Source: Streptomyces sp. Ru72 (lineage in GTDB: Bacteria > Actinomycetota > Actinomycetes > Streptomycetales > Streptomycetaceae). Taken from it: DNA of 64,000 bases. The stretch lies in contig NZ_PQSR01000033.1 in NCBI RefSeq assembly GCF_002920635.1, positions 1 to 64,000 on the forward strand, in the 5' to 3' direction. Positions 1,900 to 48,447 of the stretch are shown here, piece after piece (the first letter of the stretch is position 1; every line of letters starts with the position of its first letter). The position numbers were made by a program, and so were the translations under genes. The notes under the pieces were generated by a model. It worked only from the letters and a program-made list of their open reading frames with translations, searched no databases and was not told the DNA's origin.

Positions 1900-4318
1900 G
1901 GAGGCGTACGGCACCCCTCTTGTGCAGCGGATCGTTGCCGTTGCCGCACTTGGGGGACTGGATGCAGGACGGGCAGCCCGCCTCGCACTCGCAGGACGCG
2001 ATGGCCTGACGGGTGGCGGACAGCCAGTCGCGGGCCGTGTGGAAGGCGCGCTCCGCGAAGCCCGCGCCGCCCGGGTGGCCGTCGTACACGAAGACGGTGG
2101 GCAGGAGGGTGTCCGGGTGCAGCGGCACGGAGACGCCTCCGATGTCCCAGCGGTCGCAGGTGGCGAAGAGCGGGAGCATGCCGATCGAGGCGTGTTCGGC
2201 CGCGTGCAGCGCGCCGCCGAGGATCTCCGGGCCGATCCGGGCCTGGTCCAGCTGGTCCTCGGTGACCGTCCACCACACGGCGCGGGTGCGCAGCGTGCGA
2301 GGAGGAAGATCGAGTTTCGTCTCGCCCAGCACCTCACCGGTGATCAGACGCCGACGCAGAAAGGAGACGACCTGGTTGGTGACCTCCACCGAGCCGTAGC
2401 ACAACCGGCCCTCGCCCCAGGGGATCCCCACGTCCGTCTCCAGGACGGAGATGGAGGTCGTGTCGCGGGCGACCGTCGTGTACGGCGGGTCGGCCTCCTC
2501 GACCAGGGCGACGGAGTCCTCCAGGTCGAGTGACCGCACCAGGTACGTACGGCCCTGGTGCAGATGGACCGCGCCCTCGTGGACGGTCGTGTGGGCGGCG
2601 CCCGCGTCGACCGTGCCGAGCAGCCGGCCGGTGCCGGCCTCGACCACCTGGACCGGGCGCCCGCCCGCCCCGCGGATGTCCGTGAGGTCGGCGGCCCGCT
2701 CCCGGCGCGTCCAGTGCCAGGCCTTCGTGCGGCGGCGCAGCAGCTTCGCGGCCTCCAGCTGCGGCAGCACGTCCGCGCACGCGGGACCGAACAGCTCCAG
2801 GTCGTCCTCCGCAAGCGGCAGCTCGGCCGCCGCCGCGCACAGGTGCGGCGCGAGGACGTAGGGGTTGTCCGGGTCGAGGACCGTGGACTCCACCGGCTGG
2901 TCGAAGAGGGCCTCGGGGTGGTGGACGAGGAACGTGTCCAGAGGGTCGTCACGGGCGACCAGCACCGCGAGCGCCCCCTGCCCGGCACGGCCCGCGCGCC
3001 CCGCCTGCTGCCACAGCGACGCGCGTGTCCCCGGGTACCCGGCGATCAGCACGGCGTCCAGCCCGGACACGTCCACGCCGAGCTCCAGGGCGGTCGTCGC
3101 GGCGAGGCCGAGGAGTTCCCCGGAGTGCAGGGCCCGCTCCAGCGCGCGGCGCTCCTCGGGAAGGTAGCCGCCGCGGTAGGCGGCCACGCGGCGGGCCAGG
3201 GAGCGGTCGACCTCCGCCAGGCGTTCCTGCGCGATCACCGAGATCAGCTCGGCGCCGCGGCGGGAGCGGACGAAGGCGACCGAGCGCACGCCCTGCACGG
3301 TGAGGTCGGTCAGCAGGTCGGCGGTCTCGGCGGTGGCCGTGCGCCGGACGGGCGCGCCGCGCTCTCCGTGCAGCTCGGTGAGCGGCGGCTCCCACAGGGC
3401 GAAGACCAGCTCACCGCGCGGTGAGGCGTCGTCGGCGACCTCGACGACCGGCAGCCCGGTGAGGCGGCGGGCGGCCACCGAGGGCTCGGCGGCGGTCGCG
3501 GAGGCCAGCAGGAAGACGGGTGAGGCGCCGTAGCGGGCGCACAGGCGGCGCAGTCGGCGCAGGACCTGGGCGACATGGGAGCCGAAGACGCCGCGGTAGG
3601 TGTGGCACTCGTCGATGACGACGTACTTCAGGGCGCGCAGGAAGGAGGACCAGCGCGGGTGGGAGGGCAATATGCCGCGATGGAGCATGTCGGGGTTGGT
3701 GAGGACGTAGTTGGCGTACTGGCGTACCCATTCCCGTTCCTCGGGCGGCGTGTCGCCGTCGTAGACCGCGGCACGGATCGCTGGGCCGAGAGGGTGTGAA
3801 AGTTCCTTCACCGATCGGCACTGATCCGCCGCGAGGGCCTTGGTGGGGGCGAGGTACAAGGCGGTCGCGCCCCGGCCGTTCGGAGCCTCGGAGCCGTCCA
3901 GCAGCCGCGACAGCACCGGGACCAGGTAGGCGAGCGACTTGCCCGACGCCGTGCCCGTGGCGACGACCACCGAGTCGCCGTCCAGGGCGTGCTCGGCGGC
4001 GAGCGCCTGGTGGGCCCAGGGGTGCTCGATGCCCGCGCGGCGCACGGCGGCGACGACCTCGGCACGGATCCGGTCCGGCCAGACGGCATGGCGGCCCGCT
4101 CGCGGGGGCAAGTGCTCCGTATGAGTGATGCGCGCAGCCCGGCTCGGACCCGAGGCGAGCCGGTCCAGCACCGTGCCCGGCGAGAGGCGGGACACGGGGC
4201 CCGTCGTGGGTCGATCGGATCGGTGATTCTTGGCCATCGGCACCGAGTGTGTCACTGGCGTGACGGACAATGGGTCCAAGGCGTCGTACACGCCTGCCGG
4301 TAAGTGATTGAATGCCAT
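1793..4318 (-). CDS. DEAD/DEAH-box helicase with C-terminal DUF1998-like zinc region
   Basis: A superfamily 2 helicase of about 814-841 residues. The Walker A motif is in VVATGTASGKSLAYL, motif II is DECH (VIDECHTYRG), motif III is SAT (LLASATAAEP), and motif VI is QQAGRAGRAGQ. The C-terminal part carries a cysteine cluster (CECEAGCPSC ... KCGNG) typical of the DUF1998/MrfA group of DNA repair helicases. The ATG at 4318 is the most upstream start; an ATG at 4237 (MAKNHRSD) is an alternative, and neither has a clear Shine-Dalgarno. It is divergent from bldG, and its 3-prime end overlaps the last pilus gene convergently. In mycobacteria a homologous helicase is also close to tad genes and topA (known synteny). 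Its precise substrate cannot be told from sequence. Confidence 0.88.
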   Translation of the reverse strand: MAFNHLPAGVYDALDPLSVTPVTHSVPMAKNHRSDRPTTGPVSRLSPGTVLDRLASGPSRAARITHTEHLPPRAGRHAVWPDRIRAEVVAAVRRAGIEHPWAHQALAAEHALDGDSVVVATGTASGKSLAYLVPVLSRLLDGSEAPNGRGATALYLAPTKALAADQCRSVKELSHPLGPAIRAAVYDGDTPPEEREWVRQYANYVLTNPDMLHRGILPSHPRWSSFLRALKYVVIDECHTYRGVFGSHVAQVLRRLRRLCARYGASPVFLLASATAAEPSVAARRLTGLPVVEVADDASPRGELVFALWEPPLTELHGERGAPVRRTATAETADLLTDLTVQGVRSVAFVRSRRGAELISVIAQERLAEVDRSLARRVAAYRGGYLPEERRALERALHSGELLGLAATTALELGVDVSGLDAVLIAGYPGTRASLWQQAGRAGRAGQGALAVLVARDDPLDTFLVHHPEALFDQPVESTVLDPDNPYVLAPHLCAAAAELPLAEDDLELFGPACADVLPQLEAAKLLRRRTKAWHWTRRERAADLTDIRGAGGRPVQVVEAGTGRLLGTVDAGAAHTTVHEGAVHLHQGRTYLVRSLDLEDSVALVEEADPPYTTVARDTTSISVLETDVGIPWGEGRLCYGSVEVTNQVVSFLRRRLITGEVLGETKLDLPPRTLRTRAVWWTVTEDQLDQARIGPEILGGALHAAEHASIGMLPLFATCDRWDIGGVSVPLHPDTLLPTVFVYDGHPGGAGFAERAFHTARDWLSATRQAIASCECEAGCPSCIQSPKCGNGNDPLHKRGAVRLLTVLLRAAPEEATSGPAAPAPSAPAPPAPPAPPSP

Positions 4319-46165: not shown

Positions 46166-46224
46166 CCAGACCACAGCCAGAGCGTAGTCAAGGAACTGTA
46201 AAAGCTGTAACCGCAGGACCACCC

Positions 46225-46254
46225 CGCGTGCACGTGCATCTGCTCCTGCATCTG
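46225..46254 (+). promoter_or_regulatory. 30-bp element shared with the ATP-binding gene promoter (copy A)
   Basis: CGCGTGCACGTGCATCTGC, then three variable bases, then TGCATCTG. It contains a GTGCAC/GCACGTGC palindrome and a direct repeat TGCATCTGC. It ends 84 nt before the DUF397 start and overlaps the -35 position of a promoter whose -10 would be TATGAT (46269-46274). Copy B (47364-47393, minus strand) matches 28 of 30 positions. Confidence 0.75.
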
Positions 46255-46338
46255 CACGTGAACGGGGTTATGATCCGGGGCAGTTGACCGCCACATCAAA
46301 TGGCCATACCAGCCACTGCACCACCCGGGGAGCGACCT

Positions 46339-46596
46339 GTGGACCACGACGTGTGCTACGTGGACGACGTGTACAACGGCATGGCTGCGACAGAGCTGGA
46401 GGGAGTGGCCTGGCAGAAGAGCCGGCACAGCAACTCCCAGGGGTCATGCGTGGAGTTCGCCCGGCTGCCCGGGGGAGAGGTGGCGGTGCGCAACTCGCGC
46501 TTCCCCGACGGGCCCGCGCTGGTCTACACCCGCGCGGAGATCCAGGCGATGCTGCTGGGCATCAAGGACGGGGAGTTCGACCACCTGATCGCGTGA
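46339..46596 (+). CDS. DUF397 protein
   Basis: An 85-residue protein (98 if the ATG at 46300 is used; the GTG at 46339 has GGGGAG upstream and is preferred). The DUF397 signature is AWQKSRHSNSQGSCVEFARL, then GGEVAVRNSRFPDGPALVYT and RAEIQAMLLGIKDGEFDHL. DUF397 proteins accompany XRE-DUF5753 regulators in streptomycetes (WhiJ/AbaA type) and are thought to modulate them. Here the ATP-binding and XRE genes lie within 1 kb. Confidence 0.88.
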   Translation: MDHDVCYVDDVYNGMAATELEGVAWQKSRHSNSQGSCVEFARLPGGEVAVRNSRFPDGPALVYTRAEIQAMLLGIKDGEFDHLIA

Positions 46597-46706
46597 CACG
46601 CCGCACCGGTCCCCACCCGGTGGATCGGGGGAGCGGCGGACGTCTCCCGTCGTGACAGGGCTGGTTCGGTGGCGCGTGGAGACGCGCAGGTACGCAACCA
46701 GCGCAA

Positions 46707-46734
46707 GCCTGCGGCGACTCGGGACGCCGCAGGC
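46707..46734. terminator. Bidirectional terminator between DUF397 and ATP-binding genes
   Basis: A perfect 10-bp stem (GCCTGCGGCG and CGCCGCAGGC) with an 8-nt loop between two convergent genes. A second small hairpin (CGGCAC/GTGCCG, 46755-46772) lies closer to the minus-strand gene. Confidence 0.65.
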
Positions 46735-46779
46735 GTGTAACACGCGTAGAACTTCGGCACCCGAAAGTGCCGTGGGGCA

Positions 46780-47289
46780 TCACTCAGGACACACCTGCGC
46801 CGGCGGCAGCCGGAACAGCGCCCAGACCACCTTGCCGCTCAGGGTGCCCGCCAGCGGGTGCCAGCCCCAGCTGTCCGCGAACGATTCGACGAGGAACAGC
46901 CCGCGGCCCGACTCGGCCGAGAAGTCCTCCGAGTCGCCCGCGACCGGACTGTCGTGGCTGGGGTCGCGCACCGCGCACACCAGACGCGTGGTCCAGCGCA
47001 TGAGGTGGAGTCGCACCGGCGGGTCCTGCTCGCCCGGGCGCACGGCGCAGGCCGGCAGGGCATGGCGCAGGGCGTTGGTCACGAGTTCGGAGACCACCAG
47101 GCAGACGTCGTCGAAACGCTCGCCCACATCCCACTGCCCGAGCGTGGCCCGGGTGAACCGCCGTGCCTCGCGCACCGCTTCGAGGCGGGCGGGCAGGGCA
47201 CAGGAGGCGGCGCTGGACACGGCCGCGGGATCGAGCGGCGGAAGTCCCTGCCGTAAGGGCTCGAGCATGGTCGATCCATTCGTCCCCAT
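46780..47289 (-). CDS. ATP-binding (anti-sigma-like) protein
   Basis: A 169-residue HATPase_c_2 protein from an ATG at 47289 with GGGAG upstream. The N box is FDDVCLVVSELVTNALRHA, the first G box region is AVRDPSHDSP, and the second is ESGRGLFLVESFADSWGW. Proteins of this type in Streptomyces XRE/DUF397 clusters resemble RsbW but usually have no adjacent sigma gene. The partner here is likely the XRE or DUF397 protein (inference). Its promoter region contains copy B of the shared 30-bp element. Confidence 0.88.
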   Translation of the reverse strand: MGTNGSTMLEPLRQGLPPLDPAAVSSAASCALPARLEAVREARRFTRATLGQWDVGERFDDVCLVVSELVTNALRHALPACAVRPGEQDPPVRLHLMRWTTRLVCAVRDPSHDSPVAGDSEDFSAESGRGLFLVESFADSWGWHPLAGTLSGKVVWALFRLPPAQVCPE

Positions 47290-47363
47290 GCGAGGCACTC
47301 CCGGGTGTTCGCGGTCGTGGCGATGCAGCGGTGGCGCGGAACCATGGTTTCGGATGAGCCAAC

Positions 47364-47393
47364 CAGATGCAAGGGCAGATGCACGTGCACGCG
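47364..47393 (-). promoter_or_regulatory. 30-bp element shared with the DUF397 promoter (copy B)
   Basis: On the minus strand it reads CGCGTGCACGTGCATCTGC, CCT, TGCATCTG: 28 of 30 positions identical to copy A at 46225. It ends 74 nt before the ATP-binding gene start, about the same distance as copy A from DUF397. It lies in the 294-bp intergenic region shared with the XRE gene. Confidence 0.75.
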
Positions 47394-47583
47394 CCGGAAT
47401 TGGCCGCTCCCGCACCGTTTCCCCTTATTTCTTCAGCCACTTTCTTCCCTCCCGCTTGCCCTCCCTCAACTCCCCCTGCGCCTCATCCTTGTCTCCTTTC
47501 TATTTCTGTAACCGCACGAGTACAGCTCGGAGTGTTTTAGTGGCAGACTGCGCGATCTGAAGGACGTTGGGGAGGCTGACGAA

Positions 47584-48447
47584 GTGAGCGCTGGGGACTC
47601 GAGCGGTTCGGTGGTGCGGCGCATTCTGCTGGGATCCCACCTCAGGCGCCTGCGGGAGACACGCGGCATCACCAGGGAGCAGGCCGGCTACTCGATCCGC
47701 GCCTCCGAGTCGAAGATCAGCCGCATGGAGTTGGGACGGGTGAGCTTCAAGACGCGGGATGTCGAGGACCTGTTGACGTTGTACGGGATCACCGACGAAG
47801 CCGAACGCACGTCCCTGCTCTCCCTCGCGAAGGAGGCCAACGTCGCGGGGTGGTGGCACAGTTACTCGGACGTCCTGCCCAACTGGTTCCCGACCTACGT
47901 CGGCCTGGAGGGTGCGGCGCACCTGATCCGGTCCTACGAGGTCCAGTTCGTGCACGGCCTGCTGCAGACCGAGGCGTACGCGCACGCGGTGGTCTCCCGG
48001 GGCATGAAGGGCGCGAGCGCCGAGGACATCGACCGCCGGGTGGCGCTGCGCCTCGAGCGGCAGAAGTACCTCGTCTCGGAGAACGCCCCGCAGTTCCACG
48101 TCGTCCTCGACGAGGCCGCACTGCGCCGCCCCTACGGCGACCGGCAGGTGATGCGCGGCCAGCTGCAGCATCTGATCGACCTCTCCGAACGCCCCAACGT
48201 ACGGCTGCAGGTCATGCCGTTCAGCTTCGGCGGGCACTCCGGCGAGAGCGGTTCCTTCACGATTCTCAGCTTCTCGGAGTCCGACCTGTCCGACGTGGTG
48301 TACATGGAACAGCTCTCCAGCGCGCTCTACCTGGACAAACGCGAGGACGTGACCCAGTACGAGGCCGCGATGAAGGAGCTGCAGCAGGACAGCCCCGGCC
48401 CGGACGAAAGCCGCGATCTGCTGCGGGGGCTGCTCCAGCTTTCCTGA
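47584..48447 (+). CDS. XRE-family regulator with DUF5753
   Basis: A 287-residue regulator. N-terminal HTH: LGSHLRRLRETRGITREQAG, SIRASESKISRMELGRVSFK. The rest is a DUF5753 domain with VGLEGAAHLIRSYEVQFVHG, LLQTEAYAHAVV, RVALRLERQKYLV, and the end segment MEQLSSALYLDKREDV. This is the WhiJ-type architecture that pairs with DUF397 proteins in Streptomyces development and antibiotic control. The GTG start follows GGGGAGGCTGACGAA. The promoter side carries a pyrimidine-rich tract and an 11-mer CTGTAACCGCA also found upstream of DUF397. Confidence 0.92.
   Translation: MSAGDSSGSVVRRILLGSHLRRLRETRGITREQAGYSIRASESKISRMELGRVSFKTRDVEDLLTLYGITDEAERTSLLSLAKEANVAGWWHSYSDVLPNWFPTYVGLEGAAHLIRSYEVQFVHGLLQTEAYAHAVVSRGMKGASAEDIDRRVALRLERQKYLVSENAPQFHVVLDEAALRRPYGDRQVMRGQLQHLIDLSERPNVRLQVMPFSFGGHSGESGSFTILSFSESDLSDVVYMEQLSSALYLDKREDVTQYEAAMKELQQDSPGPDESRDLLRGLLQLS

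Follow-up and report, generated by a model that had tools for sequence, protein, structure and literature searches.

Two nearly identical 30-bp elements of Streptomyces sp. Ru72, located upstream of a DUF397 gene and of an ATP-binding (HATPase) gene, are probably operators of the neighbouring WhiJ-type XRE-DUF5753 protein, which would control both genes. We conclude that the XRE protein binds these elements and controls both partners because the related protein WhiJ9 offers a precedent and because the recognition helix of such proteins is associated with the motif.

The locus and its two elements

The window, that is, the whole 64-kb stretch of DNA that was analysed, contains the following features of the locus:

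46225-46254, + strand: DUF397-side 30-bp element (sequence match)
46230..46265, + strand: DUF397-side array of three 12-bp units, GCACGTGCATCT / GCTCCTGCATCT / GCACGTGAACGG (sequence; relatives)
46269..46274, + strand: -10-like hexamer TATGAT of the putative DUF397 promoter; unit 1 starts 39 bp before it
46339..46596, + strand: DUF397 (BldB-like) gene, SCO3424 orthologue (PF04149, 1.8e-18; alternative start ATG 46300)
46780..47289, - strand: HATPase_c_2 (AbaA / anti-sigma-like) gene (PF13581, 2.5e-14)
47344..47349, - strand: weak -10-like hexamer AACCAT of the putative HATPase promoter; unit 1 starts 39 bp before it
47353..47388, - strand: HATPase-side array, GCACGTGCATCT / GCCCTTGCATCT / degenerate GGTTGGCTCATC (sequence; relatives)
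47364-47393, - strand: HATPase-side 30-bp element (sequence match)
47584..48447, + strand: XRE (HTH_31) and DUF5753 gene, WhiJ paralogue, SCO3421 orthologue (PF13560, 2.6e-15; PF19054, 1.4e-60)

The genes are ordered DUF397(+), HATPase(-) and XRE(+), the HATPase gene being convergent with DUF397 and the XRE gene divergent from HATPase. The Pfam matches bear out the DUF397, ATP-binding and XRE-DUF5753 gene calls of a preliminary description of this DNA, and the locus shows the features of a WhiJ/BldB/AbaA triad, with an HTH-XRE N-terminus joined to a DUF5753 C-terminus and neighbouring DUF397 and HATPase anti-sigma-like genes.

The two elements lie on opposite strands and share 28 of 30 bases, both differences falling in the 3-bp spacer (TCC / CCT). 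Their pattern (N3 spacer, up to 3 mismatches) was matched twice in the whole window and never in 100 shuffles, in agreement with the pair as first described. As to the distance to the gene starts, about 84 bp separate the DUF397-side element from the likely start GTG 46339, which is preceded by GGGGAG (45 bp if the alternative start ATG 46300 is used), and about 74 bp separate the HATPase-side element from the likely start ATG 47289. A search of the genome with the 15-base core, allowing one mismatch, gave four sites. Only the two in the window were exact, the other two having one mismatch each (contigs C3 and C8); the exact core is thus not scattered genome-wide, a distribution that the preliminary description had named as evidence against its proposal.

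Repeat arrays and promoter register

According to the preliminary description, both copies carry a palindrome plus a direct repeat. Repeats are indeed present in both, but TGCATCTGC is perfect twice in copy 1 only (at 46235 and 46247), copy 2 having one TGCATCTGC and one TGCATCTGG, and the palindrome is confined to unit 1. As the named Streptomyces loci compared below show, the elements are better read as the start of 12-bp direct-repeat arrays with the core TGCAT. The DUF397 side reads, in order, GCACGTGCATCT GCTCCTGCATCT GCACGTGAACGG GGT TATGAT and the HATPase side GCACGTGCATCT GCCCTTGCATCT GGTTGGCTCATC CGA AACCAT, so that the start of unit 1 precedes the -10-like hexamer by 39 bp on both sides.

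We compared this arrangement among named Streptomyces loci, using the best 80 of 512 relatives chosen by XRE similarity, which are close relatives. Within these best 80, the HATPase-side distance was 39 bp in 73 loci and 40 bp in 7. The DUF397-side array of the same 80 had 3, 4 or 5 units, and its distance was 39 bp in 66 loci, 51 bp in 6, 63 bp in 3 and 40-41 bp in 5. The distance therefore corresponded to whole units (39, 51 or 63 bp) in 75 of the 80, and such changes of array length by whole units are as expected of a tandem operator. If transcription starts about 12 bp past the start of the -10 hexamer, the three units would lie at about -51 to -15. A full sigma-70 consensus was sought in the locus region and 0 were found, with 0.1 expected. 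A transcribed RNA element was also considered and is unlikely because the arrays lie upstream of the -10 hexamers.

A second sequence is shared within the locus: CTGTAACCGCA occurs at 46205-46215, upstream of the DUF397-side array, and at 47507-47517, upstream of the XRE gene, and its GTAAC part is well conserved at both places in the named relatives.

Conservation in Streptomyces and identity of the locus

Both arrays were present in all 80 named Streptomyces loci (best 80 of 512). In this set the HATPase-side 30 bp showed a mean identity of 0.97 to the nearest named relative (L102), vs 0.73 for the remaining intergenic sequence, and the best 23-mer of that side had no substitution and a one-base insertion in 7 loci. 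On the DUF397 side of the same set, mean identity to L102 was 0.90 in the 30 bp vs 0.50 in the 80 bp upstream. A second sample of 30 XRE-centred loci (L042-L071) had the HATPase-side element in 30/30 and the DUF397-side element in 28/30; L047 and L071 gave no match to the latter when up to 4 mismatches were allowed. In a sample independent of XRE similarity, a 24-base pattern (up to 2 mismatches) was matched in 392 of 392 Streptomyces genomes, mostly once per strand, and some dozens, as read by eye, show only one of the pair.

The HATPase gene carries the rare TTA (bldA) codon as its codon 12 (47254-47256, minus strand). TTA stands at the same codon in 78 of the 79 relatives with a recognised start (best 80 named loci of 512; L163 dropped), and no TTA codon was found in the 80 XRE genes of that set. 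A TTA codon has been reported for the AbaA-like gene in 12 of 14 genomes (PMC4255298). In addition, a sigmaE promoter has been published for SCO3424 (PMC6767563), and SCO3423 has been reported among the targets that sigmaE binds during ethanol stress (PMC10771440). The published SCO3424 promoter was matched in 5 of the 392 Streptomyces genomes with up to 2 mismatches, two of them exact, and in all five the DUF397-side array starts 84 bp further on. Together, the position of this promoter and the HATPase TTA codon identify the window genes as the SCO3421/3423/3424 orthologues, one of the known WhiJ/AbaA/BldB triads. The sigmaE promoter was found neither in L102 by match search nor in the window by reading. 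In L145, L146, L166, L170, L174, L177 and L181, a sigmaE-type promoter (GGAAC...CGTC) precedes the DUF397-side array by about 83-87 bp; it would be a further stress input that some clades acquired or others lost.

Distribution beyond the genus

A relaxed motif, TGCAYRTGCATYNNNNNTTGCAT, was searched with up to one mismatch and regardless of genes in 28 Streptomyces genomes and 268 further genomes of the class, 296 in all. It was present in 61 of them, corresponding to 27 of the 28 Streptomyces (G323 lacked it) and 34 of the 268 others, and a reversed control pattern gave, as counted by eye, four single matches across the same 296 genomes. Outside Streptomyces there were 58 sites, 57 of which, in 54 regions, were analysed; the remaining one (G079 contig 1; L185) is about 120 bp from an XRE gene. 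An XRE-DUF5753 gene lay within 1.5 kb of 38 of the 57 sites. Since three genomes outside Streptomyces hold 7 to 29 XRE-DUF5753 genes per 5.7-8.1 Mb, we estimate that chance would account for about one of the 57 or fewer. By hand count, a close XRE (E <= 1e-85) occurred in 30 of the 34 motif genomes outside Streptomyces vs 62 of the 268 overall.

Most of the 38 XRE-adjacent sites point at a partner gene on the same strand, a HATPase gene in 22 and a DUF397 gene in 8 (together 30/38). Of the remaining eight, three are directed at the XRE gene but lie on the other strand from it, and downstream of five the stretch contains no HATPase, DUF397 or XRE-DUF5753 gene. Outside Streptomyces, a hexamer with A2 and T6 was most often offset by 39 bp, yet this register was found at 13 of the 38 sites only. 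Among 13 divergent XRE loci from outside Streptomyces, fetched by XRE similarity, no convincing array was seen in L188, L189, L190 and L192.

At the other 19 of the 57 sites there was no XRE-DUF5753 gene within 1.5 kb. One of them, L289, is close to the end of its contig and adjoins a DUF397 gene, and a further seven (L271, L272, L288, L290, L294, L308 and L309; site near position 3000) have a HATPase gene 0.3-2 kb from the motif and no XRE-DUF5753 gene in the stretch. Five of these seven share the extension TGTAGATTC and perhaps carry a different, related element.

The recognition helix and the motif

The recognition helix of the window XRE is predicted at residues 42-49, inside IRASESKISRMELG. 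The AlphaFold model has a helix at these residues (mean pLDDT 70.8, with the HTH well modelled). The XRE proteins of the 36 motif-adjacent loci outside Streptomyces have recognition helices that resemble IRASESKISRMELG and fit the pattern IR[AGS]S-x-[SA]K-[IM]S, whereas those of the 15 other XREs of the own genome do not.

The association between helix and motif was analysed in XRE-DUF5753 genes of the own genome, G079, G500 and G443, with genes not selected by motif; G079 and G500 had been picked with motif sites already known, the genes inside them being unselected. From an alignment of 71 sequences, 7 with gaps in the helix and 2 duplicates were removed; the DUF5753 part was present in 61 of the remaining 62. 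A helix was taken as window-like when at least 9 of 14 residues were as in the window, and the motif as nearby when found with up to 3 mismatches at up to 1.5 kb. The motif was near 7 of the 12 XREs with a window-like helix vs 1 of the 49 others (Fisher p 1.3e-5; 61 genes, four genomes), where the cut at 9 was fixed after the list had been seen and cuts from 8 to 12 gave p from 5e-6 to 1e-3 over the variants tried. With the window locus excluded the counts were 6/11 vs 1/49 (p 5.9e-5), and with up to 2 mismatches they were 5/12 vs 0/49. The scan found no motif near five of the 12 window-like XREs. These include L338, which has an identical helix and where none was found, and L335, where the motif is present with one extra spacer base. 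These data describe an association of helix and motif, not a contact, and XREs with this helix may form one clade, in which both could have been co-inherited without touching each other.

Structure searches gave no credible relative of either protein. A sequence search of solved structures gave best E values of 0.36 for XRE and 0.13 for DUF397, and Foldseek against the PDB gave no match at E <= 0.001 for either model. The DUF397 model has a mean pLDDT of 86.3 and its Foldseek search gave nothing credible. The high-probability Foldseek matches of XRE covered the HTH alone, and near-full-length matches to Rgg, ComR and PlcR were rejected (TM about 0.2).

Proposed regulation

In the mechanism that we propose, head-to-tail 12-bp sites with the core TGCAT would overlie the -35 region and spacer, reading towards the promoter, with one array for the BldB-like DUF397 gene and one for the AbaA-like HATPase gene. 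On each array, several XRE molecules would sit side by side, presumably cooperatively; the DUF397 protein would probably feed back on XRE, and the HATPase would be gated further at translation through its TTA codon. That one regulator, probably XRE, serves both genes had been proposed in the preliminary description. The shared cis element stands, and conservation, co-location beyond the genus and the helix association make XRE its best candidate reader, although binding itself we infer. A different regulator encoded elsewhere, with the XRE gene merely adjoining the elements, is improbable. Such a regulator would account for the 19 of 57 sites outside Streptomyces without XRE-DUF5753 within 1.5 kb, in seven of which the stretch has a HATPase gene and neither of the other two gene types, but not readily for the association of recognition helix and motif (7/12 vs 1/49) or for the excess of close XREs in motif genomes (30/34 vs 62/268), bearing in mind that three gene families were searched at these loci. 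Far less probable still is that the elements are inverted repeats between which a recombinase turns around the 1.1 kb of DNA with the DUF397 and HATPase genes. The two genes do lie between inverted copies at this spacing; however, the downstream sequences are side-specific (TATGATCC vs AACCATGG) and keep the same order in the best 80 named loci of 512, only one of the two sides shows large changes in unit number in this same set, and single copies are found outside Streptomyces.

As to the sign of control by XRE, we lean slightly towards an activator at both promoters, because neither has a -35 consensus and because iosA is activated by the related protein WhiJ9. Repression has a lesser yet appreciable likelihood. 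Units at about -51 to -15 would then block RNA polymerase, and the DUF397 protein or a BldB relative would lift the block, as in the published whiJ model. The arrays cover the -35 region and the spacer at each promoter, given the start point assumed above, which would suit such a block; WhiJ9 appears to repress its own gene (PMC10294661), and the bald phenotype of the SCO4542 mutant at the whiJ locus needs whiJ (PMC4255298). On the other hand, both promoters have an activator-dependent look since neither shows a sigma-70 type consensus, and activation of iosA requires WhiJ9 (PMC10294661).

More tentatively, and with the odds rather against it, XRE control of these promoters could be one case of an ancient operator code of a single WhiJ clade, in which 12-bp iterons of varying number would be read by head-to-tail XRE multimers with the IR[AGS]S-x-[SA]K-[IM]S helix, in a fixed register over BldB-like and AbaA-like promoters of Streptomyces and of other families in its class. 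The two arrays, inverted and separated by 1.1 kb, may then come together in a loop, which would result in joint switching, the number of units tuning the response.

Relation to known systems

Most Streptomyces genomes contain many WhiJ/BldB/AbaA triads, which influence both sporulation and the production of antibiotics (PMC10294661, PMC10364602); overexpression of 14 other XRE/DUF397 pairs revealed no toxin-antitoxin behaviour (PMC10364602). The operator of this module had been called poorly defined in the preliminary description. A WhiJ9 operator at iosA-whiJ9-bldB9 of Streptomyces venezuelae was published in 2023 (PMC10294661); it is the sole defined triad operator that we found. According to that paper, the region between iosA and whiJ9 has three direct repeats (CGXXCTCAAC) to which WhiJ9 binds, more repeats bind better, and iosA induction in a bldB mutant, where all five abaA paralogues rise, needs WhiJ9; its authors speculate that other WhiJs control adjacent abaA genes (PMC10294661). 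In both systems a WhiJ-family regulator is encoded next to DUF397 and to a target or candidate target gene, with three intergenic direct repeats. They differ in repeat consensus (CGXXCTCAAC vs the TGCAT core), in position (113 bp upstream of the iosA start for WhiJ9, whereas the window arrays lie over the core promoter) and in target, which is IosA with one site described for WhiJ9 and the HATPase, together with DUF397, with two arrays in the window.

The orthologous SCO3421/SCO3423/SCO3424 locus of S. coelicolor is known for its widely conserved WhiJ-like, AbaA-like (with TTA) and BldB-like genes, and the accessible portions of the relevant papers describe no operator for it (PMC4255298, PMC6767563, PMC10771440); it differs from the window and L102 in the published sigmaE promoter of SCO3424. 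BldC forms head-to-tail multimers on direct repeats of varying extent, but it is a 68-residue MerR-like protein of another family and the likeness is by analogy only (PMC5859096).

The triads and one direct-repeat operator of the family (WhiJ9) are thus already known. In the literature searched (open-access PMC papers, bioRxiv excluded) we found no report of the present operator, of its use at two promoters, of its variation in unit number, of its reach beyond Streptomyces or of the helix rule. A very widely conserved triad gains a defined, testable candidate operator at both partner genes, and the helix-to-site rule predicts which paralogues share it. Short array fragments suit binding assays, and WhiJ control of neighbouring abaA genes becomes directly testable.

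Paralogous loci

The notion that the element is the operator of this module in general was not upheld, as it is missing from the other 15 XRE-DUF5753 loci in the own genome, which have other recognition helices. A scan of the 16 loci for shared or periodic elements detected no TGCAT array in these 15, in a crude search (350 bp upstream, 16/20 or 17/24 matches) that also left the window's own arrays unflagged, since the fragment representing the window locus (L008) stops short of the DUF397-side array and the HATPase-side array is below threshold. The WhiJ9-type triple CTCAAC pattern had matches of varied spacing in 12 of 121 genomes and was uninformative, as a control also matched. Two paralogous loci (L009 and L010, on contigs C15 and C22) have inverted repeats instead of TGCAT arrays, so that direct repeats are not shown to be general for the paralogues. 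In both loci the inverted repeats (ATATGCATAT; CACTCTG...CAGAGTG) stand in the region between an XRE gene and a divergently oriented HATPase gene and are candidate operators of these other paralogues.
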